DNA from: Veillonella sp. VA137
Lineage (GTDB): Bacteria > Bacillota > Negativicutes > Veillonellales > Veillonellaceae
DNA length: 64,000 nt
Direction of reading: 5' to 3'
Assembly (NCBI RefSeq): GCF_003992015.1
Contig: NZ_RQVK01000007.1
Location: 1-64,000, forward strand
Positions 24,258 through 41,952 of this stretch are shown piece after piece. The position numbers were made by a program, and so were the translations under genes. The notes under the pieces were generated by a model. The model searched no databases. It saw only the letters and a program-made list of their open reading frames with translations, and was not told the origin of the DNA. The stretch's first letter is position 1, and each line of letters starts with the position of its first letter.

Positions 24258-24276
24258 TCGTATATAGGAGGACATG

Positions 24277-25053
24277 ATGAAAGTATCATCTGTGAAAGAC
24301 CTCTACAACCAAATAGAAAGATATATACGTACACACGGTCGTCTCGTTTTCGGGGCGACCGTTTTATTGTGCCTAATTTGCTATCTAGGTTGGAAAGAGT
24401 CTGTTTGGTCGGAGGTGGAGCAGTTAGAAAGCCCTGTGCAATCCCATCGTGAAAGTAACAGGGCAGAGGGAGGGAAACAGAGAAATACAGATATAGATTC
24501 TGTTTCTTCTGAGGCTAGTCCTAGGAAAAAGCATACTGCTCAAAAAGAGAAACCATCTACAATGAAAGAATCATCTACAATGAAAGAATCATCTACAATG
24601 AAAGAATCATCTACAAAAGATGGCTTATCAAATGGCACGCTGATATTCCCTATTCGAAATGTATTACGTCCCTATCCATTAGTGGACACATTTTCTAAGG
24701 AGATAGTAGGAATTAAGGGGAAAGAGATGCAAGGGCTAGATAGTAGTGGTATAGATATTAAGGAAAAAGAAATACGTATGGGAAGACATACTAGAGAAGG
24801 AAATACAGACCATTTGTATCAACCACTAGAGGTAAAAAGAACGTCTAAACATCATGATCGTGTACATCATCAAGCGCCAGTGGTTCATGTGTTAGGTATC
24901 GTGTATGGAGATGCTCCAGTGGGAGTATTAGAGATTAATGGAAATATATATACAGTACATGAAGGAGAACAGGCTGAGGGTGTACAGGTTATCACGGTTG
25001 GAGAGACAAAGGTTCAGGTTCAAATTAATGGGTCTATTCGTTGGATAGAATAA
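24277..25053 (+). CDS. Bitopic membrane protein with GspC/PilP-like C-terminal domain
   Basis: Begins with a short cytosolic basic stretch and one membrane helix (about residues 21-40). Then comes a long low-complexity, hydrophilic linker with three copies of TMKESS. The C-terminal domain (about 200-258: VLGIVYGDAPVGVLEINGN...EGEQAEGVQVITVG...IRWIE) resembles the homology region of GspC or PilP, which contact secretin N-domains. The next gene is a secretin, which supports that reading. The second ATG (24277) has better spacing to AGGAGG. A strong hairpin lies inside the 5' coding part (24335-24366). Confidence 0.6.
   Translation: MKVSSVKDLYNQIERYIRTHGRLVFGATVLLCLICYLGWKESVWSEVEQLESPVQSHRESNRAEGGKQRNTDIDSVSSEASPRKKHTAQKEKPSTMKESSTMKESSTMKESSTKDGLSNGTLIFPIRNVLRPYPLVDTFSKEIVGIKGKEMQGLDSSGIDIKEKEIRMGRHTREGNTDHLYQPLEVKRTSKHHDRVHHQAPVVHVLGIVYGDAPVGVLEINGNIYTVHEGEQAEGVQVITVGETKVQVQINGSIRWIE
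24335..24366 (+). other. Perfect 12-bp hairpin with U-tail inside the coding region
   Basis: Positions 24335-24346 pair without a gap with 24351-24362 (two G-U pairs) around a TTTT loop, and the stem is followed by TTTTATT. This is the shape of an intrinsic terminator. It lies about 58 bases after the start codon of the GspC/PilP-like gene, and its stem is far richer in GC than the surroundings. Confidence 0.6.
24556..24615 (+). repeat. 18-bp tandem repeat, three perfect copies plus a partial one
   Basis: TCTACAATGAAAGAATCA occurs at 24556, 24574 and 24592 with no mismatch; a fourth unit breaks down after six bases. It encodes STMKES repeats in the linker. The unit is a multiple of three, so copy change would alter linker length without a frameshift. 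Confidence 0.9.
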
Positions 25054-25112
25054 AAGCTGGGCGGAAAACTTAAATGTAGTAAAAGGTAGAGATATGAAGG
25101 GAGAAAATACAT

Positions 25113-26339
25113 ATGTGGATTAGAATAGTAAATTATCTTAAAAGAAAGGTAGTAATCCATATCCATAAACCTATCTATCGCTGGGGAATAGCTTATGCGG
25201 TGATAATGATAGTTTTAGGGATTACTCCAGCACAGGCGTTACATATTATGGCTAAAGATATGCCTTTACGAACATTGGTACAAACCATAGCTAGGACGGA
25301 GAAACTTTCAGTAGTAGGATTAGATACATTAGAGGGGAATGTTACTTTAGATGTACAAGAAAATTCTGGACAAGAGGCCATTACTAAGTTAGGATCACAG
25401 TTAGGTTTTTTAGTCTATGAAGAAGGTGGCACCTTCATCGTAGAGGGGCGCCATGAAGAAAAAGAGCGTCGACATGTGCGTCGAATCGTAGCGGAAATAG
25501 GAACGCCTGAGGAATTGAGCAATCTTGTTCAGTCCGTAGTGCCTAAAGAACATGTACAAGTGATGCCAAGCACGAATGAAGTCATCTATTACGGGACAGT
25601 TCATGAAATTTTAGAAGTAGAAAAATTACTTCGATCTTGGCATACAGCACCGAAGCAGGTTCAGTTAGATGTGGCGGTATTGGCTATGGAAAAAGGCTAT
25701 GCAAAAGAACTAGGTGTACAATGGTCATTTCCTGGATTACAAAGTTCAGGGCTTTCCATGAACGGGAAATCTGAATCAGCTATGGAAGGAAATGTTTATA
25801 TCGGTCATATGCCTAAGAGTACATCGTATTCGTTTTTAGCGCACCCTACAGTCTCTGCTAAAGAAGGAAGTAGTCGTATGGCATTGATTGCAAGACCTAG
25901 TATTGTAGCTCTTAATGGAGAGGAAGCAAGCATTCTTATTGGTGAACGCGTGCCGGTGACAGTAGAATCTATCCAAAATGGTGTCACTAGAACTAGTATT
26001 CGTTATGAAGAGGCTGGTATACGACTGCGATGTAAGCCCTCTGTACTACAGGGAAATCATATTGATACCATTGTGGAAGCAGAAGTGAGTAACCCTACCT
26101 TAGTACCTGAAATGAAAGCTTATCGAATTACCACACGGCAAGCAAAAACAAGAGTGCGCATACCTGATGGAGAAACATTAGTCATTGGTGGATTGATGGA
26201 TCGACGTACTATGCGTCAATGGCAAAAGGTACCTATCTTGGGAGATATTCCTCTTCTTGGGAAACTATTTCAACATAGTCGTAAAACAAAAGATGAAGTA
26301 GAATTATATATTTTAGTGACGGCTAAGGTAATTCAATAA
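25113..26339 (+). CDS. Short secretin (PilQ/GspD-type outer-membrane pore)
   Basis: Signal sequence with Ala-x-Ala cut site (about residue 42, TPAQA). Then an N0/STN-type domain (LHIMAKDMPLRTLVQTIARTEKLS...EEGGTFIVEG), one N1-type domain (IVAEIGTPEELSNLVQSVVP...EVEKLLRSW) and the secretin core (QVQLDVAVLAMEKGYAKELGVQW, VPVTVESIQNGV, ETLVIGGLMDRR, KVPILGDIPLLGKLF). At 408 aa it is short for PilQ or GspD, lacking extra N-domains and an obvious lipobox. It presumably forms a ring in the outer membrane for a type IV pilus, competence or type II-like system whose other parts lie outside the window. Confidence 0.85.
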   Translation: MWIRIVNYLKRKVVIHIHKPIYRWGIAYAVIMIVLGITPAQALHIMAKDMPLRTLVQTIARTEKLSVVGLDTLEGNVTLDVQENSGQEAITKLGSQLGFLVYEEGGTFIVEGRHEEKERRHVRRIVAEIGTPEELSNLVQSVVPKEHVQVMPSTNEVIYYGTVHEILEVEKLLRSWHTAPKQVQLDVAVLAMEKGYAKELGVQWSFPGLQSSGLSMNGKSESAMEGNVYIGHMPKSTSYSFLAHPTVSAKEGSSRMALIARPSIVALNGEEASILIGERVPVTVESIQNGVTRTSIRYEEAGIRLRCKPSVLQGNHIDTIVEAEVSNPTLVPEMKAYRITTRQAKTRVRIPDGETLVIGGLMDRRTMRQWQKVPILGDIPLLGKLFQHSRKTKDEVELYILVTAKVIQ

Positions 26340-26464: not shown

Positions 26465-29400
26465 ATGAGAAAAGAAAGAAAAGAACTCTTAACGTTATGG
26501 ATTACATTGTCTTTGCAATTAGGAACCTATGCAGCACAGGGCATTGTCAGTCAAGAGGTAATGGTGGACAATAGTCAGGCTGTCCCAGTTATACAGATTA
26601 CCAATCCAGTACATGGTGTATCCCATAATCGGTATGAGTCCTTTTCTACAGATACGGGGGCTATCTTTAACAACGCCACTACACCAACGGTTAGCACCCA
26701 GATTGGTCCTGTAAATGCAAACCCTAACTTACGAGAGTCTGCGAGCCTTATTGTCAACGAAGTAGTAGGGACTTCTACATCACAGTTAGCAGGAGCTTTT
26801 GAAGTAGCAGGACAGCCTGCGGATGTGGTTATTGCCAATCCGAACGGGATTTCTGTCAAAGGGGTTCATTTTATCAACACCCCAAAAGCCACACTTACTA
26901 CAGGTGTCCCACACATGGTAGATGGTCGGTTAGAAAATTTTGTTATTGAGAAAGGAAATATTGATGTCACAGGAGGTATCAATGCACCTACAGAACAAAG
27001 TGGCTCTAATGTATATACCCCTATTTCAAAGGTGGATTTGTTAGCAAGGACTATACGTATCAATGCAGATGTGGTGGCACAAGATTCTATTCGAGCTATC
27101 ACAGGACGTAATACAGTGAACTATGCGGATGGAACTGTAACAGCTAGGGAATCTGGTGAAAGTACCCCCACAGGTGTTGCCTTAGATGTAGGGGCTCTTG
27201 GTGGTATGTATGGAAATACCATTTCTTTAATCGGTACAGAATCTGGAGTAGGTGTTAATATCAGTGGCTCCATTGATGCCATAGCAGGGAGCCTACACAT
27301 TGACACAGCAGGCAATCTCACCATCGAACAAGGTGGTTCACAGCAAGAGCCTACTAGCATTCATAGTGCTAAAGAATTGGAAATTCGTAGCCAAGACTTT
27401 CATAATCGTGGCACCCTTGTGAGTGATGAAACAGTGACAATACAAAGCGGTACTCTGACCAACGATGGAAACCTACAAGGAAAACAGATTGAGGCCAATG
27501 TTACTAATCTACGTGGACAGGGAGTGATTTCCAGCGCAGATAATCTAACTATCCAAGGTACAGACTCTATTGTGTATCAAGGAGGCATGCGCTCTCAGTC
27601 TGGGGATATCACTGTACGTGGGAAACAGGTAGAAGTAGATCGAAACCATATACAAGTAGTATCAAAAGATAAGTTGCATATAGAATCGCAAACACCTACA
27701 CCGGAAACACCTGTAGATATCCTAAAACCAACACTAGAGAATCCTTTACATACACCGACTATACAACCTATCCCACACATACCTAGCAAGGTTGTGGTAG
27801 AGGATACACAAGAAGAGTTACCCATTACTGTAGATGTAAATGCTCCTAAGAATCGTCAACCGATCCTAGATACGACGAGGAATGGGATAGATATTCTACA
27901 CATTGCCGGTGTTGATGGAAACGGTGTTTCTCACAATGCATATACACAGTTTAATGTGAAAGAGAGAGGTCTTATTCTCAATAATGCCACGAAATACACA
28001 AAGACTCAATTAGCTGGGTATATAGATAAAAATATGTTTCTAGCTGGGAATGGTGCTAAGACAATCATCAATGAGGTCACTTCTACGAGTCCATCTATTT
28101 TGAAGGGATATATAGAAGTGGCAGGAAATCCAGCAGATGTAGTCATTGTGAATCCTAATGGTATGACCGTCAATGGATTAGGCGTGATCAATGGCGCTCA
28201 TATGACCTTGCAAGGAAAATCTTATATAGACATCGTAGGCAAAGGCTATGGGGGACAGCAGATGGATAGTACTTTCATCAGTGACAATTTACGTAACCGC
28301 CGCAGTGAACTATGGGGCCATCACCTTCGTATTGACACAGAAAACCTAGAGAACACAGGTAACATAGCGGCACATACAATGCATATATCTGCTAACACTA
28401 TGCACAATGCAGGCTTTGTTGAAAGTAAAGACACTCTCCAATTGACTGGAAACGAGCTTGTACAACATAAGGGCATTATGAAGGCGAATCAGACTGTCCA
28501 TATTTCGGCTAACCATATCCTGAATAGCAACTCCTCTGTGTTAGAAGCTGGTGGCAGTTTACATATCACGGGAGATACGTTACAAAATGATGCATCCCAT
28601 GTAGTCAGTCATGGTATGATGCACGTAACTGTGGGCAACTTAGAAAACATAAACACAGGGGCTATCATTGCAGAAGATACCTTGCAGATACAAGGAGATA
28701 CGTTTGCCAATACGAAAGGCATTCTCTTTGCAAAAAACGATACAGAGATAGATATGAAAGAGAATGTGACGAACACCAGTGGATTGTGGCATGTACTAGG
28801 TAATTTGCGTGCGCAAGGTCGCCACATTCGGAATATCAACAGCAAAGGTTCTTACTTTGGTTCAGATATGTATGTGGGTGGTAACGCCTATGTACTGGGA
28901 AAAGAGAGCTTTGAAAATAGGTCCTCAGATGTCATTGTCAAAGGTGATCTCACTATCAAAGCCCCTAAGATACAAAATCATAAGGATGTGTTTAAGACAG
29001 GGTGGACCATTTCAGAAGAAGATAAGTATGAGGGCATACCGCATCTAGACCAGCCAAACTATTATGAGGCAGATAGAAAATACCATAGAACGATTCATAC
29101 AGGCACCATAGAAGAGGAAACCGCTACATCTAGAATACTGAGCGATGGTACCATCCATATTACAGGAAAAACTGTTCAAAATACACACAGTCAGATAATG
29201 GCTAAGGACGGCTTACAGATTACGGCAGATTCTGTTACTAACACAGGATATCAAGGGACGGTTCATTATGATGATATAGGCCGAGATAGACATTACTGGA
29301 AGTATAAACAGAAAAAACGTTGGTGGAAACGTAAAAAGTGGGTCTATGGACATACAGATATTCCCTATGAACATCATATAATCTTTGATGCTGAAAGTAG

Positions 29401-32400
29401 CCCATCCAGTGAACGTATTGCTGTATTAGGCAGTCACGGAACTACGAGGATCCAGTCTAATGCATTTACCAATACAACACTTGAGGCAGATGGAACAGCT
29501 TATGCAGTGCGAGATAAAAAAGTTGAAACTGCAGTGGCACCTACAGATATTTCCAAATTAGTGACCCCAGTGTTGGAACCATCAAAACAACTCTACATGA
29601 CGACGGATCCCCTTGCCGTAGCTAAGGTAGAAGATAACCCTTTATATACAGATAAAAAGCAATTTTTGTCTAGTGACTATATGGTCGCTAGATTACAAGC
29701 AGACCCAGAACGAGTGTACAATCGATTGCGCCATGGATATGAAGATCAAGAAATAGCGAAAGAAGAACTCCATCAAAGTGGTCATACCCTTACGAAATAT
29801 ACAGATCATGATCAGTCCTTACTTTCAGGTATACCTAACAGTATGTTACAACCTGGAGATTTGCGCAAAGATGGTAGTATAGTTTTGGGTAAAGATGTGC
29901 AGGTAATAAGCCAAAAAGTAGATAATACGGGTAGCATACAAGCAGAGGGCTCTCTGTCCATTACAGGTAATTATGTTCATAACCTCAGTGGGTCTATGAA
30001 TGGTAATCTAGTTTCTATACGCACAGATATGTTAGAAAATATTTCTGGTCGTATACATGGTAAAGATGGTGTTCACATAGAAGGAAAAGATATCCGGAAT
30101 GAAACGCAGATAACCACTAATACTTCGTTGGGACATCGACAAGATACAGCGCATGGAAATGCTAGTATCACTAGTGATGGCGGCATCCATATCCAAGGGG
30201 ATTCCATACGTTCTGTAGGTGCTACTATACAGGGAAATAGTACGGTGAATCTCGCAGGGAAAGATATACAAATCTCTGCTCGTGCCTTACAAAATCGCTA
30301 CATAGGTAGTGGAGTGACCTTAGACTCTACTAAGAACCTAGGAAGTACCGTACAAGGACATACGGTACAAGTCCAAGGGGGAGAAATCACCTTGCAAGGC
30401 TCCCGTATGATGGGACACGCAGTGGATCTTAGAGGGAAGTCTCTACTCCTTACGAATGTAACAGATAGAACTGTATCAGATGTAGCAGTGGGTGCTAGAG
30501 GTAGTGACTATTTCAACCGTAAGATGGTTATAGAAGAACAGAATCTAGGAGCGACCATTGAAGGCGAGACTGGTGTTAAGGTGCGTATGGATAACAATGT
30601 ATCCATGAAAGGAAGCACTATACATAGTAAAACGGGTCTTGTAGATGTACAAGCAGGTCGAGTCTCTATTGCACATGGTACTGAGCGTCATGAAACACTA
30701 TCTGAAATCCATCAAAAAGATAGAGGGTTCTTATCGTCTACCACACGTGATGTCTACGACCATAAACGTACAGATACAGTCGTAGGCTCTACGATTTCCA
30801 GTGGTACTGTTAAGGTAGATGGTAAGCAAGACGTACTAGTTAAAGCCAGCCATATAGTGGGGGATGCAGATGTTACGGTTACAAGTGAAGGCAATTTGAC
30901 CATTACATCAGCACAGGAAGAATCTGGTGCCACTCATCGTGAGGAAGTACGTAAATCGGGTATCTTTGGTAATGGCGGTCTTAGCCTTACTATTGGAAAA
31001 CAAAGACAAACAGATACCTATGATGCTACGAGTAGTGTAGCCAAAGGCAGCGTGATTGGAAGTCGCTTTGGTTCTGTCACATTAGGTGCTACAGGATCTA
31101 CACAAATAGAAGCTAGTGATGTAGCATCTAAAGGGGATATTCAGGTTCAAGGCTCTGGTGTGACAATACGCAATGGTTATACCACATCCCATACAGAAGA
31201 AACACATAGATTTTCTAAAAGTGGGCTTACTCTCTCATTGTCGAATCGCTTAGTAGATACTACAACCAATGCAGTAGGTACACTCACACGAGCAAACTCT
31301 GTAAAAGACGAACGATTGAAAGCTCTATTAGCCTACAAAACCTATGACGATGCTAAGACATCTATAGAAAAATCTAAACTGAAAGACCAAGCCAAGAGTT
31401 TACACCTCAATCTATCTTTAGGCACAGAAAGAAGTGAAGCCTCTACGAATGTAGATAGTAAGATAGCAAAAGCATCGACCGTTGTATCCGATGGACATAT
31501 TCGTGTTACCACTAAGAAGGATGATATCCGCATAGAAGGAAGCGATGTACAAGGCAAGGACATTACTTTAGACTCTGCGAACGGTATCTATGTGAAAGGC
31601 AAAGAAACAACCTCTAAGATGTCACAGAGTATGAAACAGAAGCAAGGATCTCTAGGTATTTCCTATGACCTTTTACAACATCGATTCTCCGATATATCCG
31701 TCAATGCCAGTGGCAGTAAAGGTAGTATAGCCGGTACAGACATAGTCCATGATCCTACAAAGATAATAGCAACGAATACCCTTGGAGTGAACACAAAACA
31801 GGATGTACACATCAAAGATGGTGTTCTTAAAGGGGAGGCTATCCAAGCAAATATTGGTGGAAATTTAGAGATTCACTCTGTACAAGATACACATGACTAT
31901 ACAGACCATACTACATCTGGTGGCATGGGACTTAGCCTATCTAAGAAAGGTGCATTCAAATCGTTACAAAGCTCCTTGCAACGGACTGATATAGATAGCA
32001 AATACACCTCTGTGATTCACCAATCTGGACTCTATGCAGGGAGTACAGGATTCAACATATCCGTAGGCAATACGACCACATTAGAAGGGGCCCTGTTATC
32101 TAGTAAAACAGATAGGAACATACTGAAAACAAAACAGTTAGTTATGAAGGATATGGAGAATAGGGCGAAATATAGTGTAACAGGGCATACTTATTTGGGT
32201 AAGATAAGTAATAGAATTAATATAGGTAATAAAGCCAATAATAAAATAGATTTTCAATATACTGGCATTCACTTGCCCCCTATAAGTGATGGCATTTCCA
32301 ATAGAACAAAAACAATTATCGCAAAAGGTAGTATTGTATCAGAAGAGATTAATGTATCCTTAAAAAATGAAAATAGCAACATAGAGGATAATATATATCC

Positions 32401-34111
32401 ACTACCTCAGATTTTTGAAAAGAAAAAAGTTATAGAAAAGTCTGATTATATAGGGAGTATATCAAGTAAAATCTTTACCTTAATTGGTGATATGGCTTAT
32501 AAAAAACAAAAAAACTTGTTGCAAAAAAAGTTAGAAGCTGAAAAGAGTGGAAATAATTCACTAGCAAATAAACTTGAAAGTAATTATCATAAATGGGGAG
32601 ATGGAGGTTTATATAAGGTTATTGCTCACGGTATAGCGAGTGGATTTCTCAGCTCATTGAGCGGATATAATATGCTTCAAGGAGGATTTTATGGCTCTAT
32701 AAATGAGTATAGTAAAAAGCTTCCATCAAATGTATCAAAGGGGCTTTATTCTATATCAAATTTTATAGCAGAAAAGTCGAAAAATCCCTATTACTCGTTA
32801 AAAACTTATGCAGATAAATTTAACTGGTTAACACATGAAGAGCAACAAGCATTTTTGAGACAACTTATGGAAGCAGAGAGTGAGAAAAGACGTGCTGAAA
32901 TAATTGGAATGTATTTTGCTATTAGTAATTATAGGGTTCAACATGGTATTGGTACAGAAGATGAAAAAGATGAAATAATAGATGGTTCTGTAGCCGATAG
33001 TATATATACATGGACAAATCCTGAATATTTTAAAAAAGGTCTCAATTATACATTAGCGAAAATGACTGAGCGTAGCCCAGTAAGTGTGCAGTTTTCTAAT
33101 GATGTTAGAAGGGATATTGAAGCAGGGATTCTATACTCGTCAAAAAATTCATATTTAAATGATGGCGATATTTATGCTGATAGAAGAAATCGAGTAGTAA
33201 CATCATACGACGGTAATAACTATGTATATATTAATGGAGAGTTTTTGTTTACTAATAGAAATTCTGACTATACTTATAATCAATTTGGAGATTTTTTGGC
33301 TGATCATGGATGGAATGTTCAAAGAACGGAGTGGGATGGTGAAGAGGTCAACTATGTTACTTACAATGGAAGAGCTTTTGCTGCTAATCGTCAACCTACG
33401 AGTCCTATTTTAACCAAAACAATAGAAACTCTTGCAGGTTCAATAAAAGGATATGATGATGTTGTAGCCTATGGAGTAGGTCATGCTGTAGCTGAAAATG
33501 CACTTGGAATTAAACCAATTTCATCGAATAGTACAGAATACCAAGCTGGCAAAGTTATAGGAAATATAGTTGGAGGAGTACAAGGTGGATTTGAAGTAGC
33601 TAGTGGTTTATATAAATCTAGTGTAGGATCTATTGGTAATTTAAACTATGGAAGCGCAGTGTTAGGATTTAGTAGTGAAGGTATTGTTTCTACTACACAC
33701 GGTTTACTTTCATTAAAGAAATTTTCTGGAGAGATAAATCATAATCTTAATACATTATTTATGAAACGGAGTACGAATAGTAAAAATGGTGGAATAGATT
33801 CATCACAACCTAGCGATTCAAGAGCTCAAGAGTTTGAAAAATCGATTTCTAAAATGCCAGTAAATGAAAGAATAGGAACAGTACTTGCTAAGTTAAAAGG
33901 AATTGCTTCAGATTATGGATGGGAAAAAGTAGGAAGGTCATTAGATGGTAGAATAGTATATAAAGATAATAATGGATTTTATTATACAATAGATACAATG
34001 CACGGCAGATTTGAAAAGTTTGATAGAAATATGAAACATATTGATGAGGTAAATATCGATTTAATTCCACAAAACAAACAAAAGAAAAATCGGGTTTTAA
34101 AAATTCGATGA
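26465..34111 (+). CDS. cdiA: CdiA-like two-partner-secretion exoprotein with two TPS domains and a C-terminal toxin
   Basis: A 2,548-residue filamentous adhesin/toxin. A signal peptide (about 1-25) leads to a TPS secretion domain (about 28-170) with NEVV and NPNG (Asn125). After a first repeat region and a Pro-rich linker (about 409-441) a second TPS-like domain appears (about 466-596) with HNAYTQFNV, INEV and NPNG (Asn563). Long haemagglutinin-type beta-helix repeats follow to about 1900, interrupted by a cationic patch HYWKYKQKKRWWKRKKW (943-959). After ENRAKY (about 1903) the sequence becomes unique and AT-richer: a 645-residue C-terminal region with a HGIASGFLSSLSG helical segment and a tip (about 2468-2548) holding Asp2510-x2-His2513-x3-Glu2517, as in colicin E3-type rRNases. 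Export would need the CdiB at 40294. Toxin class is inferred. Confidence 0.85.
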   Translation: MRKERKELLTLWITLSLQLGTYAAQGIVSQEVMVDNSQAVPVIQITNPVHGVSHNRYESFSTDTGAIFNNATTPTVSTQIGPVNANPNLRESASLIVNEVVGTSTSQLAGAFEVAGQPADVVIANPNGISVKGVHFINTPKATLTTGVPHMVDGRLENFVIEKGNIDVTGGINAPTEQSGSNVYTPISKVDLLARTIRINADVVAQDSIRAITGRNTVNYADGTVTARESGESTPTGVALDVGALGGMYGNTISLIGTESGVGVNISGSIDAIAGSLHIDTAGNLTIEQGGSQQEPTSIHSAKELEIRSQDFHNRGTLVSDETVTIQSGTLTNDGNLQGKQIEANVTNLRGQGVISSADNLTIQGTDSIVYQGGMRSQSGDITVRGKQVEVDRNHIQVVSKDKLHIESQTPTPETPVDILKPTLENPLHTPTIQPIPHIPSKVVVEDTQEELPITVDVNAPKNRQPILDTTRNGIDILHIAGVDGNGVSHNAYTQFNVKERGLILNNATKYTKTQLAGYIDKNMFLAGNGAKTIINEVTSTSPSILKGYIEVAGNPADVVIVNPNGMTVNGLGVINGAHMTLQGKSYIDIVGKGYGGQQMDSTFISDNLRNRRSELWGHHLRIDTENLENTGNIAAHTMHISANTMHNAGFVESKDTLQLTGNELVQHKGIMKANQTVHISANHILNSNSSVLEAGGSLHITGDTLQNDASHVVSHGMMHVTVGNLENINTGAIIAEDTLQIQGDTFANTKGILFAKNDTEIDMKENVTNTSGLWHVLGNLRAQGRHIRNINSKGSYFGSDMYVGGNAYVLGKESFENRSSDVIVKGDLTIKAPKIQNHKDVFKTGWTISEEDKYEGIPHLDQPNYYEADRKYHRTIHTGTIEEETATSRILSDGTIHITGKTVQNTHSQIMAKDGLQITADSVTNTGYQGTVHYDDIGRDRHYWKYKQKKRWWKRKKWVYGHTDIPYEHHIIFDAESSPSSERIAVLGSHGTTRIQSNAFTNTTLEADGTAYAVRDKKVETAVAPTDISKLVTPVLEPSKQLYMTTDPLAVAKVEDNPLYTDKKQFLSSDYMVARLQADPERVYNRLRHGYEDQEIAKEELHQSGHTLTKYTDHDQSLLSGIPNSMLQPGDLRKDGSIVLGKDVQVISQKVDNTGSIQAEGSLSITGNYVHNLSGSMNGNLVSIRTDMLENISGRIHGKDGVHIEGKDIRNETQITTNTSLGHRQDTAHGNASITSDGGIHIQGDSIRSVGATIQGNSTVNLAGKDIQISARALQNRYIGSGVTLDSTKNLGSTVQGHTVQVQGGEITLQGSRMMGHAVDLRGKSLLLTNVTDRTVSDVAVGARGSDYFNRKMVIEEQNLGATIEGETGVKVRMDNNVSMKGSTIHSKTGLVDVQAGRVSIAHGTERHETLSEIHQKDRGFLSSTTRDVYDHKRTDTVVGSTISSGTVKVDGKQDVLVKASHIVGDADVTVTSEGNLTITSAQEESGATHREEVRKSGIFGNGGLSLTIGKQRQTDTYDATSSVAKGSVIGSRFGSVTLGATGSTQIEASDVASKGDIQVQGSGVTIRNGYTTSHTEETHRFSKSGLTLSLSNRLVDTTTNAVGTLTRANSVKDERLKALLAYKTYDDAKTSIEKSKLKDQAKSLHLNLSLGTERSEASTNVDSKIAKASTVVSDGHIRVTTKKDDIRIEGSDVQGKDITLDSANGIYVKGKETTSKMSQSMKQKQGSLGISYDLLQHRFSDISVNASGSKGSIAGTDIVHDPTKIIATNTLGVNTKQDVHIKDGVLKGEAIQANIGGNLEIHSVQDTHDYTDHTTSGGMGLSLSKKGAFKSLQSSLQRTDIDSKYTSVIHQSGLYAGSTGFNISVGNTTTLEGALLSSKTDRNILKTKQLVMKDMENRAKYSVTGHTYLGKISNRINIGNKANNKIDFQYTGIHLPPISDGISNRTKTIIAKGSIVSEEINVSLKNENSNIEDNIYPLPQIFEKKKVIEKSDYIGSISSKIFTLIGDMAYKKQKNLLQKKLEAEKSGNNSLANKLESNYHKWGDGGLYKVIAHGIASGFLSSLSGYNMLQGGFYGSINEYSKKLPSNVSKGLYSISNFIAEKSKNPYYSLKTYADKFNWLTHEEQQAFLRQLMEAESEKRRAEIIGMYFAISNYRVQHGIGTEDEKDEIIDGSVADSIYTWTNPEYFKKGLNYTLAKMTERSPVSVQFSNDVRRDIEAGILYSSKNSYLNDGDIYADRRNRVVTSYDGNNYVYINGEFLFTNRNSDYTYNQFGDFLADHGWNVQRTEWDGEEVNYVTYNGRAFAANRQPTSPILTKTIETLAGSIKGYDDVVAYGVGHAVAENALGIKPISSNSTEYQAGKVIGNIVGGVQGGFEVASGLYKSSVGSIGNLNYGSAVLGFSSEGIVSTTHGLLSLKKFSGEINHNLNTLFMKRSTNSKNGGIDSSQPSDSRAQEFEKSISKMPVNERIGTVLAKLKGIASDYGWEKVGRSLDGRIVYKDNNGFYYTIDTMHGRFEKFDRNMKHIDEVNIDLIPQNKQKKNRVLKIR
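30920..32174 (+). repeat. Donor copy of a 1,255-bp direct repeat (in cdiA)
   Basis: This part of cdiA recurs at 35364-36618 at a constant offset of 4,444 bases, so there is no insertion or deletion across the block. Only scattered substitutions are seen. It covers the last haemagglutinin repeats up to the ENRAKY junction; the sequences diverge completely afterwards. Confidence 0.95.
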
Positions 34112-34120
34112 GGTATTATA

Positions 34121-35263
34121 ATGAAAAATAAGGATTCCTTTAATCAATGCATTATAAGTAAGAAAGAAATAATGAATCAAACAGAAAATTATAAGTCGTT
34201 TGATTTTTTATATTCAGACTGTAAACTTAAAAATCATATAGTAAATAGTTTCGGTCCAGAACTACTTATACAATATGGGCGCCCAAAATTAACTCTTAAT
34301 GATTGTGATACATTTGTGACAACTATGAAGGTTAAGGTTTATCCTAAGTCCCCATGTTATGAAATTTATTATGAATATGAGGTGATTTTAAGTAATCGTG
34401 AAAAGTATGGTATATTTTTTAATAGCCTTAGTTTATATGCAATAACTATGAAGGATGTTTTTTATGATTATTTAAAGGAAAGACAATATATTGAAGAATT
34501 ATTGAAATTAAATGGTTATAGTAATATTTCTACTGTTGATATACATCAAAGGATTCCTTTAGTGCCCATGGATGAATCAAGGTCAGGTGAGGAATTTTTA
34601 GGATGCCAACACTACTTGGGATATATATTGTGTTACGGTGAGGAACTTGGTGATTCTAACGGTAAAATTGCAAAGGATATTGATCAATCTTTAACTAATA
34701 TTGCAGAAGAAATCATACATTTAGTAAAACACAGTAAATTTATAGACGAGGAGTATGTTGTGGATGAATGTATTCCTAGATGTATGCATTCTCAAGCAAT
34801 TGAAGAGTTAGATTCCCTATGTAAAAAATATGGAGGGAGTAGACTACCAGATAAAGAACAAAGTTATGTATGGCATATAGGTACCTATTGTACTAATGAA
34901 GGAGATATTCAAGTTGTTTCAGCAATATATATATATGTATCGTTGTATATAAAAACGTTTTATATACAGGTACAACAAATAATAACTGTTAGGGACAATG
35001 AATTTAATATAATAACTATTAAAAGGAATGTTTTTGGTGACGATGCAGAGGTGTTATTTGATTTCACCACAAAGATGTATTATGAAGCTATAGGTACATT
35101 GGAGCGTCTAGGATATGAAAGACAACAAGAAATAAATTATAAGGTATATATAGAAGTGGTTGGAGAAGAAATGAAAAAAGAGGTAGAGATAGGGGAATTG
35201 CTATTTGGTCTCCAACGCAATGAATATTCTTGTGTTGATACAATAATCAAGTCTAAAGGATAG
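34121..35263 (+). CDS. cdiI: Putative immunity protein for the CdiA toxin
   Basis: A 380-residue soluble protein that starts nine bases after the cdiA stop, the position of a CDI immunity gene. I do not recognise its family. Two halves look alike in plan: each has several beta strands rich in Tyr and Ile followed by a helix ending LLKLNGY (about 120) or LERLGY (about 330), so it may be an internal duplication. It is far larger than the roughly 85-residue colicin E3 immunity protein. Base composition is AT-rich, like the toxin tip. The role is inferred from position only. Confidence 0.55.
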   Translation: MKNKDSFNQCIISKKEIMNQTENYKSFDFLYSDCKLKNHIVNSFGPELLIQYGRPKLTLNDCDTFVTTMKVKVYPKSPCYEIYYEYEVILSNREKYGIFFNSLSLYAITMKDVFYDYLKERQYIEELLKLNGYSNISTVDIHQRIPLVPMDESRSGEEFLGCQHYLGYILCYGEELGDSNGKIAKDIDQSLTNIAEEIIHLVKHSKFIDEEYVVDECIPRCMHSQAIEELDSLCKKYGGSRLPDKEQSYVWHIGTYCTNEGDIQVVSAIYIYVSLYIKTFYIQVQQIITVRDNEFNIITIKRNVFGDDAEVLFDFTTKMYYEAIGTLERLGYERQQEINYKVYIEVVGEEMKKEVEIGELLFGLQRNEYSCVDTIIKSKG

Positions 35264-35495: not shown

Positions 35496-36618
35496 GTGAT
35501 TGGAAGTCGCTTTGGTTCTGTCACCTTAGGTGCTACAGGATCTACACAAATAGAAGCTAGTGATGTAGCATCTAAAGGGGATATTCAGGTTCAAGGCTCT
35601 GGCGTGACAATTCGCAATGGTTATACCACATCCCATACAGAAGAAACACATAGATTTTCTAAAAGTGGGCTTACTCTCTCATTGTCGAATCGCTTAGTAG
35701 ATACTACAACCAATGCAGTAGGTACACTCACACGAGCAAACTCTGTAAAAGACGAACGATTGAAAGCTCTATTAGCCTACAAAACCTATGACGATGCTAA
35801 GACATCTATAGAAAAATCTAAACTGAAAGACCAAGCCAAGAGTTTACACCTCAATCTATCTTTAGGCACAGAACGAAGCGAAGCTTCTACGAATGTAGAT
35901 AGTAAGATAGCAAAAGGATCGACCGTTGTATCCGATGGACATATTCGTATTACCACTAAGAAGGACGATCTTCGCATAGAAGGAAGTGATGTACAAGGCA
36001 AGGATATTACCTTAGAGTCGGCGAATAGTATCTATGTGAAGGGCAAAGAAACGACCTCTAAGATGACACAGAGTATGAAACAGAAACAAGCCTCTCTAGG
36101 TGTTTCCTATGATCTTTTACAACATCGATTCTTTGATATATCCGTCAATGCTAGTGGCAGTAAAGGCAATATAGTAGGGACAGACATAGTCCATGACCCT
36201 ACGAAGATAACTGCAACGAATACCCTTGGAGTGAAAACAAAACAGGATTTACACATCAAAGATGGTGTTCTTAAAGGAGAGGCTATCCAAGCAAATGTTG
36301 GTGGAAATTTAGAGATTCACTCTGTACAAGATACACATGATTATACAGATCATACTACATCAGGTGGTATGGGACTTAGCCTATCCAAGAAAGGTGGATT
36401 TAACTCGTTACAAGGTTCCTTGCAACAGACTGACATAGACAGTACATATACCTCTGTGATTCATCCATCTGGAATGTTTGCAGGAAGTACAGGATTCAAC
36501 ATATCCGTAGGCAATACGACTACATTAGAAGGAGCCTTACTAGCTAGTAAAACAGATGCGAATGCACTGAAAACAAAATATCTAGTTATGAAGGATATGG
36601 AGAATAGGGCGAAGTATA
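35364..36618 (+). repeat. Second copy of the 1,255-bp direct repeat (orphan module)
   Basis: Matches 30920-32174 at a fixed 4,444-base offset with no indel. Ends at the same ENRAKY codons after which the two C-terminal regions differ. Recombination across it would replace the toxin and immunity genes of cdiA with those of the orphan. Confidence 0.95.
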
Positions 36619-38726
36619 CCTATGGGTCTAAAGGAGTGTCGTACCTAGCGGATCCAACGATTGGAAAAAGCAGTAAGCAATACAACGAACTTGGATTGAT
36701 ACCTACGATTATGCCTGGGGAACGTGGCAAGGCAAATAGCACAACCTATTCAGCAATCGCTAAAGGAGTGCTAGATGTTGAACATCCTGAGGTGAATCTC
36801 AATACCATTCGTAGAAATACGGAAGATTCACTACATACATTAAGCACTATTTTTGATAGGCAAGGTATTGCAGAACGACAAGAAACAGCTAAACTATTCA
36901 GCAAGTATATGAATGAAGCAATCCATAGATTTGGTGAAATGAGAGATGCAAGAGGACAACGAATCTATGAAGATGGTTCATCTGAAAAGGTCGCATTGCA
37001 CGCTCTATCTGGTGCCATTACATCAGCTATTGTAAAAGGAAATCCTACAACTGGTGCCATATCTGGTGGCCTCAATGAAGCATTGATACAATCTATAAGC
37101 AAACTAGCGAAGGATCACCCAGCAAGAGCACAACTACTATCTGCTAGCCTTGGCTATACCGTAGATAAGCTATTAGGTGGAGACGGATTAGGAGGTGCTA
37201 GCATTGCACAAGCTGGAACGAAGTGGAATCGTTATGGACCTCGTAGAAGATTTAATGGAGAAGTCACAGTACAGTTAGCAGGCGTACTACAAACTAAAGT
37301 AGCTAATAAGGAGCCTATAGATTTTCAAGATGTTAAAAATGTAAAATTTAGTATGCTAAATAATTGGGAAGAGGAAGAAGTCTCGATTGAAGATTTACCA
37401 CATCAATATGTCGTATGGGTAGCCGACAAAAATGGTTTTGGACAAGATTACGTAGTCGATAAAGTTAAAAAAAGGTTAATCCCAATATATGGAGATTTTA
37501 AAACCCAGTATATTAGTGTAAATAATAAAAAGAATATTATTTTTACAGGGGATGATGCTATATTAAAAAATGAATTGCATCTATATCCAACCGATGAAAA
37601 AAGTGTACCTTTAGGTTACATTATTCAGAATAAACATATTAGAGAGTTTTTTGGTGGTTTTAGAGAAGGCTTTGGAGATGCTTTAGAAAGTGATATAGAA
37701 GGGCAAAAAGAGTTTTTAGAAGAATTAATGTTTAATCCACTTGGCGTGATACATGATATGCAAAAATTAGTGGAAAATTTAAGTCAGGTTTCTAATTTGC
37801 AACACTATAGAGAACAATTGTCGCAGATAACTAATGAAATGTATCAGATTGCATTGAGCGATGATAATAAGAGAAAAGGAGTCTTGTTAGGTCAAGCAAC
37901 GGAAATAGTAGCAAGTATTATATTAAGCCCAGATAAAATAAAAATATCAAAGGTTAATTTTTTGAATAAAGTACATAAGATAATGGAATTTACACCTCAA
38001 CGCATTAAGTTTGAGCAAGCATTTGAAGCTGCTGTTGCTATGGGGAAAATTGTTGATGAAGAAGAAACTCTTATTAAGGTAAATAAAATAAATGCTATTG
38101 AAAATAAAGCAGAAGTAATTGGAAAAGAATCTAAATTGACAGCTAAGGATGCAAAAGCTAATAAAAGCATAGAATCAAATAAAAAAGCATCCCCTAAACA
38201 ATCTACTACTGAAACGGCAAGTCCTACTACAAACACAACAAAATTAGCTGATAGTCCAGATATTTATCGAAATGGTGAGCAATATAAACCGGGAGTGAAA
38301 ACAAGAGAATTAAAAGAGAATATTGTATATGAGAGCAAAGGGTATTATTACCAAACGGATGAATTAGGTCGTATAAAGGCTGCCCAAGGTGATTTGCGAT
38401 TAGAAGATGGTGTACGAAATAACGGAGATCAATTAAAAGCAGGTGGTGATGACCGATTACGAGGGGACCATGGTGGACATCTGATAGCTAGAATCTTTGG
38501 AGGTTCAGGAGAATTAGATAATCTAGTTGCCATGGATGCAATTGTGAATAGAAGTGATTATAAAACTATGGAAAATCGATGGAAGAATGCATTACAAGAG
38601 GGTAAGGAGGTGAAGGTAACGATAGATATAGTATATGATGGAGCAAATAAAAGACCAAAAGAATTTAATATAAATTATATTATCGATAATAATGATGATA
38701 CATTAACGATTGCAAATGGAGGTTAA
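35496..38726 (+). CDS. Orphan CdiA C-terminal module with His-type non-specific nuclease domain
   Basis: Lacks signal peptide and TPS domains: it begins in the last haemagglutinin repeats shared with cdiA (to about residue 374). The unique part has a pretoxin helix region (VALHALSGAITSAIVKGN...TTGAISGGLNEAL), a beta region (about 590-680), a Lys/Thr/Ser-rich linker (about 870-915) and a terminal domain with RGDHGGHLIARIFGGSGE (active His near 992-995) and NRSDYKTMENRWKNAL, the pattern of the DNA/RNA non-specific endonuclease family (Endonuclea_NS_2). The only in-frame start is an internal GTG at 35496 with a weak AAAGG site, so it may be untranslated until recombined. Function is inferred from motif. 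Confidence 0.75.
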   Translation: MIGSRFGSVTLGATGSTQIEASDVASKGDIQVQGSGVTIRNGYTTSHTEETHRFSKSGLTLSLSNRLVDTTTNAVGTLTRANSVKDERLKALLAYKTYDDAKTSIEKSKLKDQAKSLHLNLSLGTERSEASTNVDSKIAKGSTVVSDGHIRITTKKDDLRIEGSDVQGKDITLESANSIYVKGKETTSKMTQSMKQKQASLGVSYDLLQHRFFDISVNASGSKGNIVGTDIVHDPTKITATNTLGVKTKQDLHIKDGVLKGEAIQANVGGNLEIHSVQDTHDYTDHTTSGGMGLSLSKKGGFNSLQGSLQQTDIDSTYTSVIHPSGMFAGSTGFNISVGNTTTLEGALLASKTDANALKTKYLVMKDMENRAKYTYGSKGVSYLADPTIGKSSKQYNELGLIPTIMPGERGKANSTTYSAIAKGVLDVEHPEVNLNTIRRNTEDSLHTLSTIFDRQGIAERQETAKLFSKYMNEAIHRFGEMRDARGQRIYEDGSSEKVALHALSGAITSAIVKGNPTTGAISGGLNEALIQSISKLAKDHPARAQLLSASLGYTVDKLLGGDGLGGASIAQAGTKWNRYGPRRRFNGEVTVQLAGVLQTKVANKEPIDFQDVKNVKFSMLNNWEEEEVSIEDLPHQYVVWVADKNGFGQDYVVDKVKKRLIPIYGDFKTQYISVNNKKNIIFTGDDAILKNELHLYPTDEKSVPLGYIIQNKHIREFFGGFREGFGDALESDIEGQKEFLEELMFNPLGVIHDMQKLVENLSQVSNLQHYREQLSQITNEMYQIALSDDNKRKGVLLGQATEIVASIILSPDKIKISKVNFLNKVHKIMEFTPQRIKFEQAFEAAVAMGKIVDEEETLIKVNKINAIENKAEVIGKESKLTAKDAKANKSIESNKKASPKQSTTETASPTTNTTKLADSPDIYRNGEQYKPGVKTRELKENIVYESKGYYYQTDELGRIKAAQGDLRLEDGVRNNGDQLKAGGDDRLRGDHGGHLIARIFGGSGELDNLVAMDAIVNRSDYKTMENRWKNALQEGKEVKVTIDIVYDGANKRPKEFNINYIIDNNDDTLTIANGG

Positions 38727-40293: not shown

Positions 40294-41952
40294 TTGACAA
40301 ATCATAAAATAGTTACAGGCCTTGCTTGTTTGTGTATAGGGGCGCTTTCTCATAGTGTTCATGCTAATACTATAGACGAGCAAGGTAAGCTGCTAGACCA
40401 GATGGAGCGTTCTATATCTCATGTAGAGCAAAAGGGAACGCCGTCTTTCACAGTTCTTACAGAGGGGATTGTACCTCAAAATATAAATCAACTGTCTAGT
40501 GATGAACTAGAATTTTTAATTCATCATATTGAGCTATCTCAGGTTCCACCAGAGTTTAGTTTTCTGCAAACGATGGTGGCTAAGAAAGAACATCAATTGT
40601 ATGGGGTAGAAACAATTAATACCTTGTTGCAAGAACTGAATACAACCTTACTAGATAGAGGGTATGTGACTTCTAAGGTCTATATGGAGCCTCAAAATAT
40701 AGGGAGTGGAACACTTCGGTTATCCTTGCTGGTAGGAACCATAGAGGAGATACAATTTAAGGGCGTAGCAGGTAATTATACAAATGCATTAGCCTTTCAT
40801 AAGGGGCATATTTTAAACATACGGAAGATAGAACAAACTGTAGATAATTTAAATGCAGTGCCCCATCAGAAGGCTAAGGTACAGTTACAACCGAGAAGTA
40901 AGTTAGGTACATCTATAGTGGTATTTCAGATAGAAAATAAATCTAAAGTAGAGGTCACCACAGGATTCGATAATTTTGGTAATGAAGGGACAGGGCGCTT
41001 TCAAGGAAATATGTCTATTACAGTAGGCAGACCATTAGATCGTAGTGATACCTTATACTATAGCTTAACAAAATCTAGACACTCAGATAGTATCAATACG
41101 AGCAAATCCAGTTATGTATCATATCAAATACCTATTGGAAATGATAGCATTACCCTTAGCCATTCTAATTCAGACTATCAACAACGGGTTGCTTATGCCA
41201 TTAAACCGTTTATTTCTAGCGGTAACTTTACTAGCGATGAATTACGATGGAATCACGTATTGCATAGGAATAGCCAACAGATTACAGAATTAGTACAAGA
41301 TCTTACACATAAGACAAGGCATTCGTTTATCAATGGTAGTGAAATTGATGTGCAACGGAGAAATACCACGTCTTGGTCCATAGGAATACATCAAAAACGA
41401 TATAGCAAGAAGGGAAGTTTAGATTGGTTAGTGCAATATGAAAAAGGTGTTCCTTGGTGGGCTAGTCCTGGACCGACAGATCATTTAGAGGAAGCTACGA
41501 CACAGTATCATATATATACGGGGAAAGTGAACTATCAACGTGCATTGACACTTTGGAATCGAAAAGCTACCTATACAATAGAAGCAAAAGGACAGTATAC
41601 GAATAGTAAGCTCTATAGCAGTGAGTTCTTTACCATTGGTGGATGGTATACGGTGCGTGGGTTTACCGGTGATAGAAATCTAGCCGCAGAACGAGGGTTT
41701 TATGTACGGAACACCTTGGATGTATCATTAAATCAGAATCATACAGTGTATATAGGTTTGGATTATGGTAAAGTGTACGGAAAATCTACGGAAGATATAT
41801 TGGGTACAGAGTTGTGGGGTGGAGCCATTGGAATGAAAGGACACTATGGAAGTGCTAACTATAATCTATTCTTGTCCACACCGTTACAAGTACCAAACGG
41901 TTTTACAGTGCCACACCGAGTCCTAGGAATACAGATGAGTGTAGCATTCTAA
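40294..41952 (+). CDS. cdiB: CdiB/TpsB-type outer-membrane transporter (ShlB/FhaC family)
   Basis: The outer-membrane partner that exports the CdiA-like protein. A TTG start 7 bases after AAGGAG begins a signal peptide ending SHSVHA. Residues about 60-210 form POTRA-type domains (TINTLLQELNTTLLDRGYVTSKVYM...GTLRLSLLVGTIEEI), followed by a 16-strand-type barrel rich in alternating polar/hydrophobic strands. The lid-loop signature VRGF (residues 454-457) precedes the barrel end, and the last residue is Phe, as outer-membrane barrels require. It lies 17 bases after the orphan immunity gene, so the whole locus may be one transcript with the transporter last. Confidence 0.93.
   Translation: MTNHKIVTGLACLCIGALSHSVHANTIDEQGKLLDQMERSISHVEQKGTPSFTVLTEGIVPQNINQLSSDELEFLIHHIELSQVPPEFSFLQTMVAKKEHQLYGVETINTLLQELNTTLLDRGYVTSKVYMEPQNIGSGTLRLSLLVGTIEEIQFKGVAGNYTNALAFHKGHILNIRKIEQTVDNLNAVPHQKAKVQLQPRSKLGTSIVVFQIENKSKVEVTTGFDNFGNEGTGRFQGNMSITVGRPLDRSDTLYYSLTKSRHSDSINTSKSSYVSYQIPIGNDSITLSHSNSDYQQRVAYAIKPFISSGNFTSDELRWNHVLHRNSQQITELVQDLTHKTRHSFINGSEIDVQRRNTTSWSIGIHQKRYSKKGSLDWLVQYEKGVPWWASPGPTDHLEEATTQYHIYTGKVNYQRALTLWNRKATYTIEAKGQYTNSKLYSSEFFTIGGWYTVRGFTGDRNLAAERGFYVRNTLDVSLNQNHTVYIGLDYGKVYGKSTEDILGTELWGGAIGMKGHYGSANYNLFLSTPLQVPNGFTVPHRVLGIQMSVAF

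Follow-up and report, generated by a model that had tools for sequence, protein, structure and literature searches.

It is an open question how two-partner exoproteins are exported without external energy, and whether their TPS domain serves as a signal, as a folding template or in both ways (PMC5422565). In known systems the POTRA domains of the TpsB partner bind the TPS domain, and this domain is argued to carry an N-terminal cap and to act afterwards as cap and template for β-helix folding (PMC5422565, PMC10284417). For FHA, the first Asn of the NPNG turn matters for secretion (PMC10284417). Characterised members of the CdiA/FhaB/HpmA group of TpsA proteins (type Vb) are described with one N-terminal TPS domain. 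The AlphaFold model of EtpA, an HMW-type TpsA, has a break between two β-helical segments, but its kink is a loop with an α-helix, and the description mentions no second TPS domain (PMC10284417). In the open-access literature we found no published description of a double-TPS layout and no paper naming two TPS domains in one protein; the one match for "two TPS domains" sets two separate proteins side by side.

Here we describe such a layout in a Veillonella genome. The window, a 64,000-nucleotide stretch of Veillonella sp. VA137, encodes an exoprotein that resembles CdiA, FhaB and HpmA in its N-terminal PF05860 match, its haemagglutinin repeats and the TpsB gene in its locus, and differs from them in that a hinge and a second, half TPS domain come after the first. 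The relevant features are listed below.

26465..34111, + strand: TpsA/CdiA-like exoprotein, 2548 aa, ATG start (PF05860 twice and Fil_haemagg_2)
26465..26536, + strand: putative signal peptide, residues 1-24 (basic n-region and hydrophobic core, as judged from the translation)
26552..27334, + strand: TPS1, complete TPS domain, residues 30-290, with NPNL (86), NPNG (125) and GGMY (246) (PF05860, 135 bits; FHA TPS structure 1rwr; second-half conserved columns kept)
27335..27688, + strand: short run of haemagglutinin-type β-helix repeats, residues 291-408 (PF05594, E=1e-4; TIGR01731)
27689..27820, + strand: Pro-rich linker or hinge, residues 409-452, 9 Pro in 44 (composition; low pLDDT; equivalent linkers in homologues)
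27821..28264, + strand: TPS2, N-terminal half of a TPS domain, residues 453-600, NPNG at 563 (PF05860; local profile 2-139/262; AlphaFold2 model and Foldseek)
28265..28744, + strand: junction (SELW at 614) directly into regular β-helix repeats, residues 601-760 (SE[LI]W common to TPS2 rows; strands in the model; TIGR01731)
29600..29770, + strand: CdiA-like Tyr/Pro region, NPLY (1058) and SDYM (1070) (tblastn to Enterobacter haemagglutinin-repeat proteins)
40294..41952, + strand: TpsB partner, 552 aa, two POTRA domains and ShlB/FhaC barrel (PF03865, PF17287, PF08479)

Two TPS regions in a CdiA-like exoprotein

The product of 26465-34111 has the make-up of a TpsA exoprotein of two-partner secretion. 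Its N-terminus (MRKERKELLTLWITLSLQLGTYAAQG), read by eye from the translation, resembles a Sec signal peptide, and the N-terminal PF05860 match is followed by haemagglutinin-type repeats behind TPS1 (PF13332, 89.7 bits; TIGR01731, 47.5 bits). The cognate TpsB in the locus matched PF03865 (280 bits) and two POTRA families. One open frame of similar size was also present in three congeners (Veillonella sp. VA142, CHU740 and VA139). An assembly chimera or misread frame was ruled out, as three further assemblies carried the same layout, 90-92% identical.

PF05860, the Pfam TPS model (cut-off 33.5 bits), matched this frame twice when the regions were scanned apart, at residues 30-286 (135 bits) and 454-706 (86.4 bits); across scans the second match, the domain itself lying at about 454-600, scored 86-89 bits. 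With the NCBIfam model TIGR01901 (cut-off 29.1 bits), the TPS1 and TPS2 parts each scored 63.1 bits. Both regions thus lie far above both cut-offs, bearing out the earlier note, which had proposed two TPS-type domains in one exoprotein and a profile search of both parts with the haemagglutination-activity model. Its motif positions were exact (VNEV at 97, INEV at 535, ADVV at 119 and 557, NPNG at 125 and 563), and the Pro-rich linker that it placed between the domains was confirmed by the 9 Pro in residues 409-452. The densest 44-residue window of residues 1-1400 starts at 410 and holds 10 Pro, compared with a mean of 1.3 and no more than 5 elsewhere. Its domain extents need correction: TPS1 reaches about residue 290 rather than 170, and TPS2 is not complete.

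Aligned with each other over 96 aa, the two regions are 49% identical (E=4e-19). In sequence searches of the PDB, TPS1 matched the FHA TPS structure 1rwr (E=4e-34), and phmmer with TPS2 found HpmA (E=3e-22) over residues 57-175 only of the queried fragment. AlphaFold2 modelled residues 440-770 from 19 sequences with a pLDDT of 93.7 and a pTM of 0.89; the alignment behind this confident model included seven single-TPS proteins. A Foldseek search with the TPS2 model returned 16 matches at E<0.001, all of them TPS domains (HpmA, FHA, HMW1; E 1e-11 to 4.5e-4). TPS2 is likewise related in modelled fold and in sequence (E=3e-22 to 1e-20) to the TPS domains of Proteus mirabilis HpmA (3fy3 and mutants) and Bordetella FHA (1rwr), but differs from them in lacking the C-terminal half and in having DxN for NPNL. 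TPS2 therefore models as a TPS fold. That it might be an ordinary β-helix repeat, as the earlier note had allowed, is contradicted by the 16 best Foldseek matches, and the Pfam, NCBIfam and Foldseek results, with phmmer against the PDB, ruled out ordinary repeats that mimic TPS motifs. A joint model of residues 23-760, built from 12 double-TPS sequences alone, had a pLDDT of 70, with values of ~36-66 in the first part of TPS2 (~450-550) and 27-35 over most of the linker; the rod behind was well predicted.

The locus appears CDI-like. The Tyr/Pro region at 29600..29770, which may be the YP domain that lies between the two FHA regions of CdiA, showed 46% identity over 48 aa by tblastn to Enterobacter haemagglutinin-repeat proteins. 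A string search found neither the VENN nor the (E/Q)LYN pretoxin motif in the exoprotein. Because these strings are absent, although other taxa use other pretoxin motifs (PMC9086364), we term the protein CdiA-like rather than CdiA. Its C-terminus (33950-34111) weakly matched PF09000 Cytotoxic, a colicin E3-type rRNase family (18 bits against a cut-off of 22). This C-terminal end is shared by congener L061; those of L060 and L062 differ. The ORF at 34121-35263 (380 aa), at the position of an immunity gene behind the exoprotein, had no family match. An orphan CdiA C-terminal module follows at 35496-38726, its first part a near copy of a main-protein stretch and its end an Endonuclea_NS_2 domain, and the next gene is YezG-like and of the immunity type; module and gene are likely a cassette for toxin exchange. 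Directly upstream of tpsA (24274-26339) lie genes for a 259 aa protein with a C-terminus that is PilP/GspC-like by eye and for a short secretin of 408 aa, a pair also found in L060 and L062 and not in L061.

TPS2 as a half domain

A profile of 262 positions built from Negativicutes TPS domains covered TPS1 to its end (position 262) and TPS2 at positions 2-139 only. Conserved columns were next compared in an alignment with 42 single-TPS rows, the halves being split at position 140. TPS2 rows retained 82% of the conserved first-half columns and 28% of those in the second half, versus 81% and 90% for TPS1 rows. The N-cap, first coils and NPNG turn are present in TPS2. Absent are NPNL, the TTGxP motif after NPNG and the C-terminal half with GGMYA and GTxxGxG, whereas TPS1 largely retains NPNL, TTGxP and GGMYA. 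In the window protein NPNL (residue 86) occurs in TPS1 only, with DKNMFL at the matching place in TPS2. Because the profile match ends at 139 of 262 positions and second-half columns are mostly lost, TPS2 represents a TPS domain reduced to its N-terminal half, with regular repeats following immediately at SELW. In TPS2s from outside Veillonella somewhat more of the middle was recognisable (profile to about position 189), and the C-terminal segment was also absent.

Distribution and origin of the layout

TPS matches were found in 207 of 380 Negativicutes genomes, and the re-search for shared frames was limited to those of the 207 with at least two matches. At least 22 Negativicutes genomes held two or more TPS matches in one open frame. 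The window's layout, or one near it, was present in 12 genomes, comprising four of the genus together with G108, G109, G119, G120, G121, G170, G331 and G059. Within the window's genus, 4 of 6 genomes had the double TPS; in the family's three other genera, no TPS-bearing genome had a frame with two TPS matches. The conserved layout consists of a complete TPS1, a few repeats, a Pro-rich linker, a half TPS2 and a long β-helix. Seven non-Veillonella members have TPS1, a few repeats and a Pro/Glu-rich linker before TPS2, which starts with the pattern (L)TAD..A...Y(K/R)PI.D...GI.L(V/I)QI and has NPNG or NANG, with DxN replacing NPNL, and an SE(L/I)W junction. This junction (SE[LI]W) is common to eleven TPS2 rows, and the TPS1-to-TPS2 start distance in the subfamily is 419-491 residues. 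In G059 (locus L111) TPS2 is complete, the spacer is longer and the distance is 637 residues; L111 may display the state preceding TPS2 shortening. TpsB is encoded directly upstream of TpsA in the non-Veillonella doubles and last in the window locus.

Because further genera of the class have this layout as well, it is a real and conserved protein design of an uncharacterised Negativicutes subfamily. An oddity confined to the window's genus was ruled out by the same recurrence. The singularity implied by the earlier note is thus not borne out, as the class also holds other multi-TPS proteins, triples included. The remaining Negativicutes multi-TPS frames comprised weaker matches and HMW-like pairs or triples. 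HMW-like pairs are alike in having more than one PF05860 or TPS-profile match per frame, as are the three-TPS proteins of G376 and G378, which fell outside the TPS2 clade in a quick tree. The latter (L114 in G376, 1775 aa; L113 in G378, 2495 aa) carry three TPS domains in a row with short Pro-rich linkers and come from two genera of the same order. A Burkholderia stagnalis chromid also holds an unannotated frame (L084:1662-5546) with two complete TPS domains, at residues 87-344 and 660-918. Unlike in the window protein, these two full domains are each other's nearest kin (100/100), marking an independent tandem duplication. Plasmids were searched with two double-TPS queries, and the 40 and 60 best records spanned at most ~1.3 kb, which corresponds to one TPS matched by both query halves; the viral contigs searched gave no match.

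The careful tree used 146 shared columns, and all trees were unrooted. Ten Negativicutes TPS2 rows formed one clade (100/95; in 100% of 200 bootstrap trees), and this separate placement ruled out a recent internal duplication of TPS1. Seven TPS1 rows grouped together (100/99), with the window TPS1 on a long branch; a single clade of all TPS1s was compatible with the tree but not shown by it (AU p=0.255). The TpsBs of ten double-TPS rows, the window's included, grouped (80/99) apart from other Veillonellaceae TpsBs, with that of G059 outside; a single clade of all double-TPS TpsBs was again compatible with the tree but not shown (AU p=0.12).

When aligned with single-TPS Veillonellaceae proteins, TPS2 and the body that follows it fall on their TPS domain and body respectively. 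For one of these (L070) the alignment was continuous, pairing window residues 439-2079 with residues 19-1695. In several other single-TPS relatives, the TPS-to-body distance is greater by ~120 residues, roughly the size of the half that TPS2 lacks. Because TPS2 stands where these relatives have their sole TPS domain, it probably descends from the one TPS domain that an ancestral single-TPS TpsA possessed, with TPS1 and the hinge added in front. We infer that this front addition came before the loss of the C-terminal half of TPS2, an order whose polarity the unrooted trees do not themselves fix. Among the segments compared in the four congeners, pooled omega was lowest in the linker (0.08) and in TPS2 (0.11, or 0.106), against 0.14 in TPS1, 0.17 in the repeats and 0.14-0.22 behind TPS2. 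These values indicate purifying selection on TPS2, with no decay.

Possible roles of TPS1 and TPS2

We favour, with some reserve, a model in which TPS1 signals export and TPS2, as an internal cap, lets β-helix folding start anew after the hinge. TPS1, complete and behind the signal peptide, would be recognised by the TpsB of 40294-41952 as the export signal. The Pro-rich hinge would then interrupt the β-helix after TPS1 and the short β-helix that follows. Because this hinge should end the first β-helix, the second would need a new cap. Once through TpsB, TPS2 would close the hydrophobic end of the long second β-helix and seed its folding, leaving a two-segment, hinged rod. EtpA would be alike in its two segments, whereas the window protein has a Pro-rich linker and then TPS2. 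The fold is a prediction, and this division of labour and the capping role are what we infer. The Pro-rich linker ahead of TPS2, in the window and in homologues, counts for the model, as do its very low model confidence in the window, the domain matches, the one-sided column retention, the TPS2 model with its Foldseek matches, the alignment to single-TPS bodies, the recurrence of layout and junction, the TPS2 clade and the low omega of linker and TPS2. Several observations count against it: TPS2 keeps NPNG, which is also compatible with a secretion role; the full-length TPS2 of G059 means that loss of the second half is not obligatory; the first part of TPS2 has low pLDDT in the joint model; and the window TPS1 lies on a long branch. 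Among the three roles proposed in the earlier note (a restart of export, a second contact with the TpsB-type partner, a structural cap), the cap fits best, because TPS2 retains the capping, nucleating half and has lost the other.

A tentative alternative makes TPS2 a second docking site for TpsB, where it would bind surface loops or POTRA domains once the first segment has exited and so pause, restart or anchor export. Retention of the N-terminal half with NPNG would suit such contact, and a special partner could explain why the TpsBs of ten double-TPS rows group (80/99), but co-inheritance of the locus predicts that grouping equally well. Loss from TPS2 of NPNL, TTGxP and the whole C-terminal half with GGMYA, all largely kept in TPS1, also argues against docking. 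A staged export, which we consider doubtful, would have TPS1 start a short lead segment and the hinge pass, upon which TPS2 would re-engage TpsB or its surface loops and the long rod would be exported and would fold in a second step with a nucleation of its own. The position of TPS2 at the native TPS site of single-TPS relatives, and its missing half, could also mark a functionless relic of a tpsA-tpsA fusion or of a new export module placed before the old one. Decay would then be expected, yet eleven rows, drawn from several families, retain the first half, and omega among the four congeners (0.106) lies under that of most neighbouring segments, which makes this reading improbable. Extra-helical TPS motifs may mediate homotypic contacts (PMC10284417), and TPS2 might be a binding module shown at the hinge for homotypic contact or receptor binding; since it lost the conserved C-terminal segment and kept cap and core, we regard this as very improbable.

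Under the internal cap model, evolution seems to have split the TPS domain, with a complete copy at the export end and the capping half inside the same chain. The reduced copy is under selection in several genera, and such a split may make the two functions separable in one protein, where this would be directly testable.
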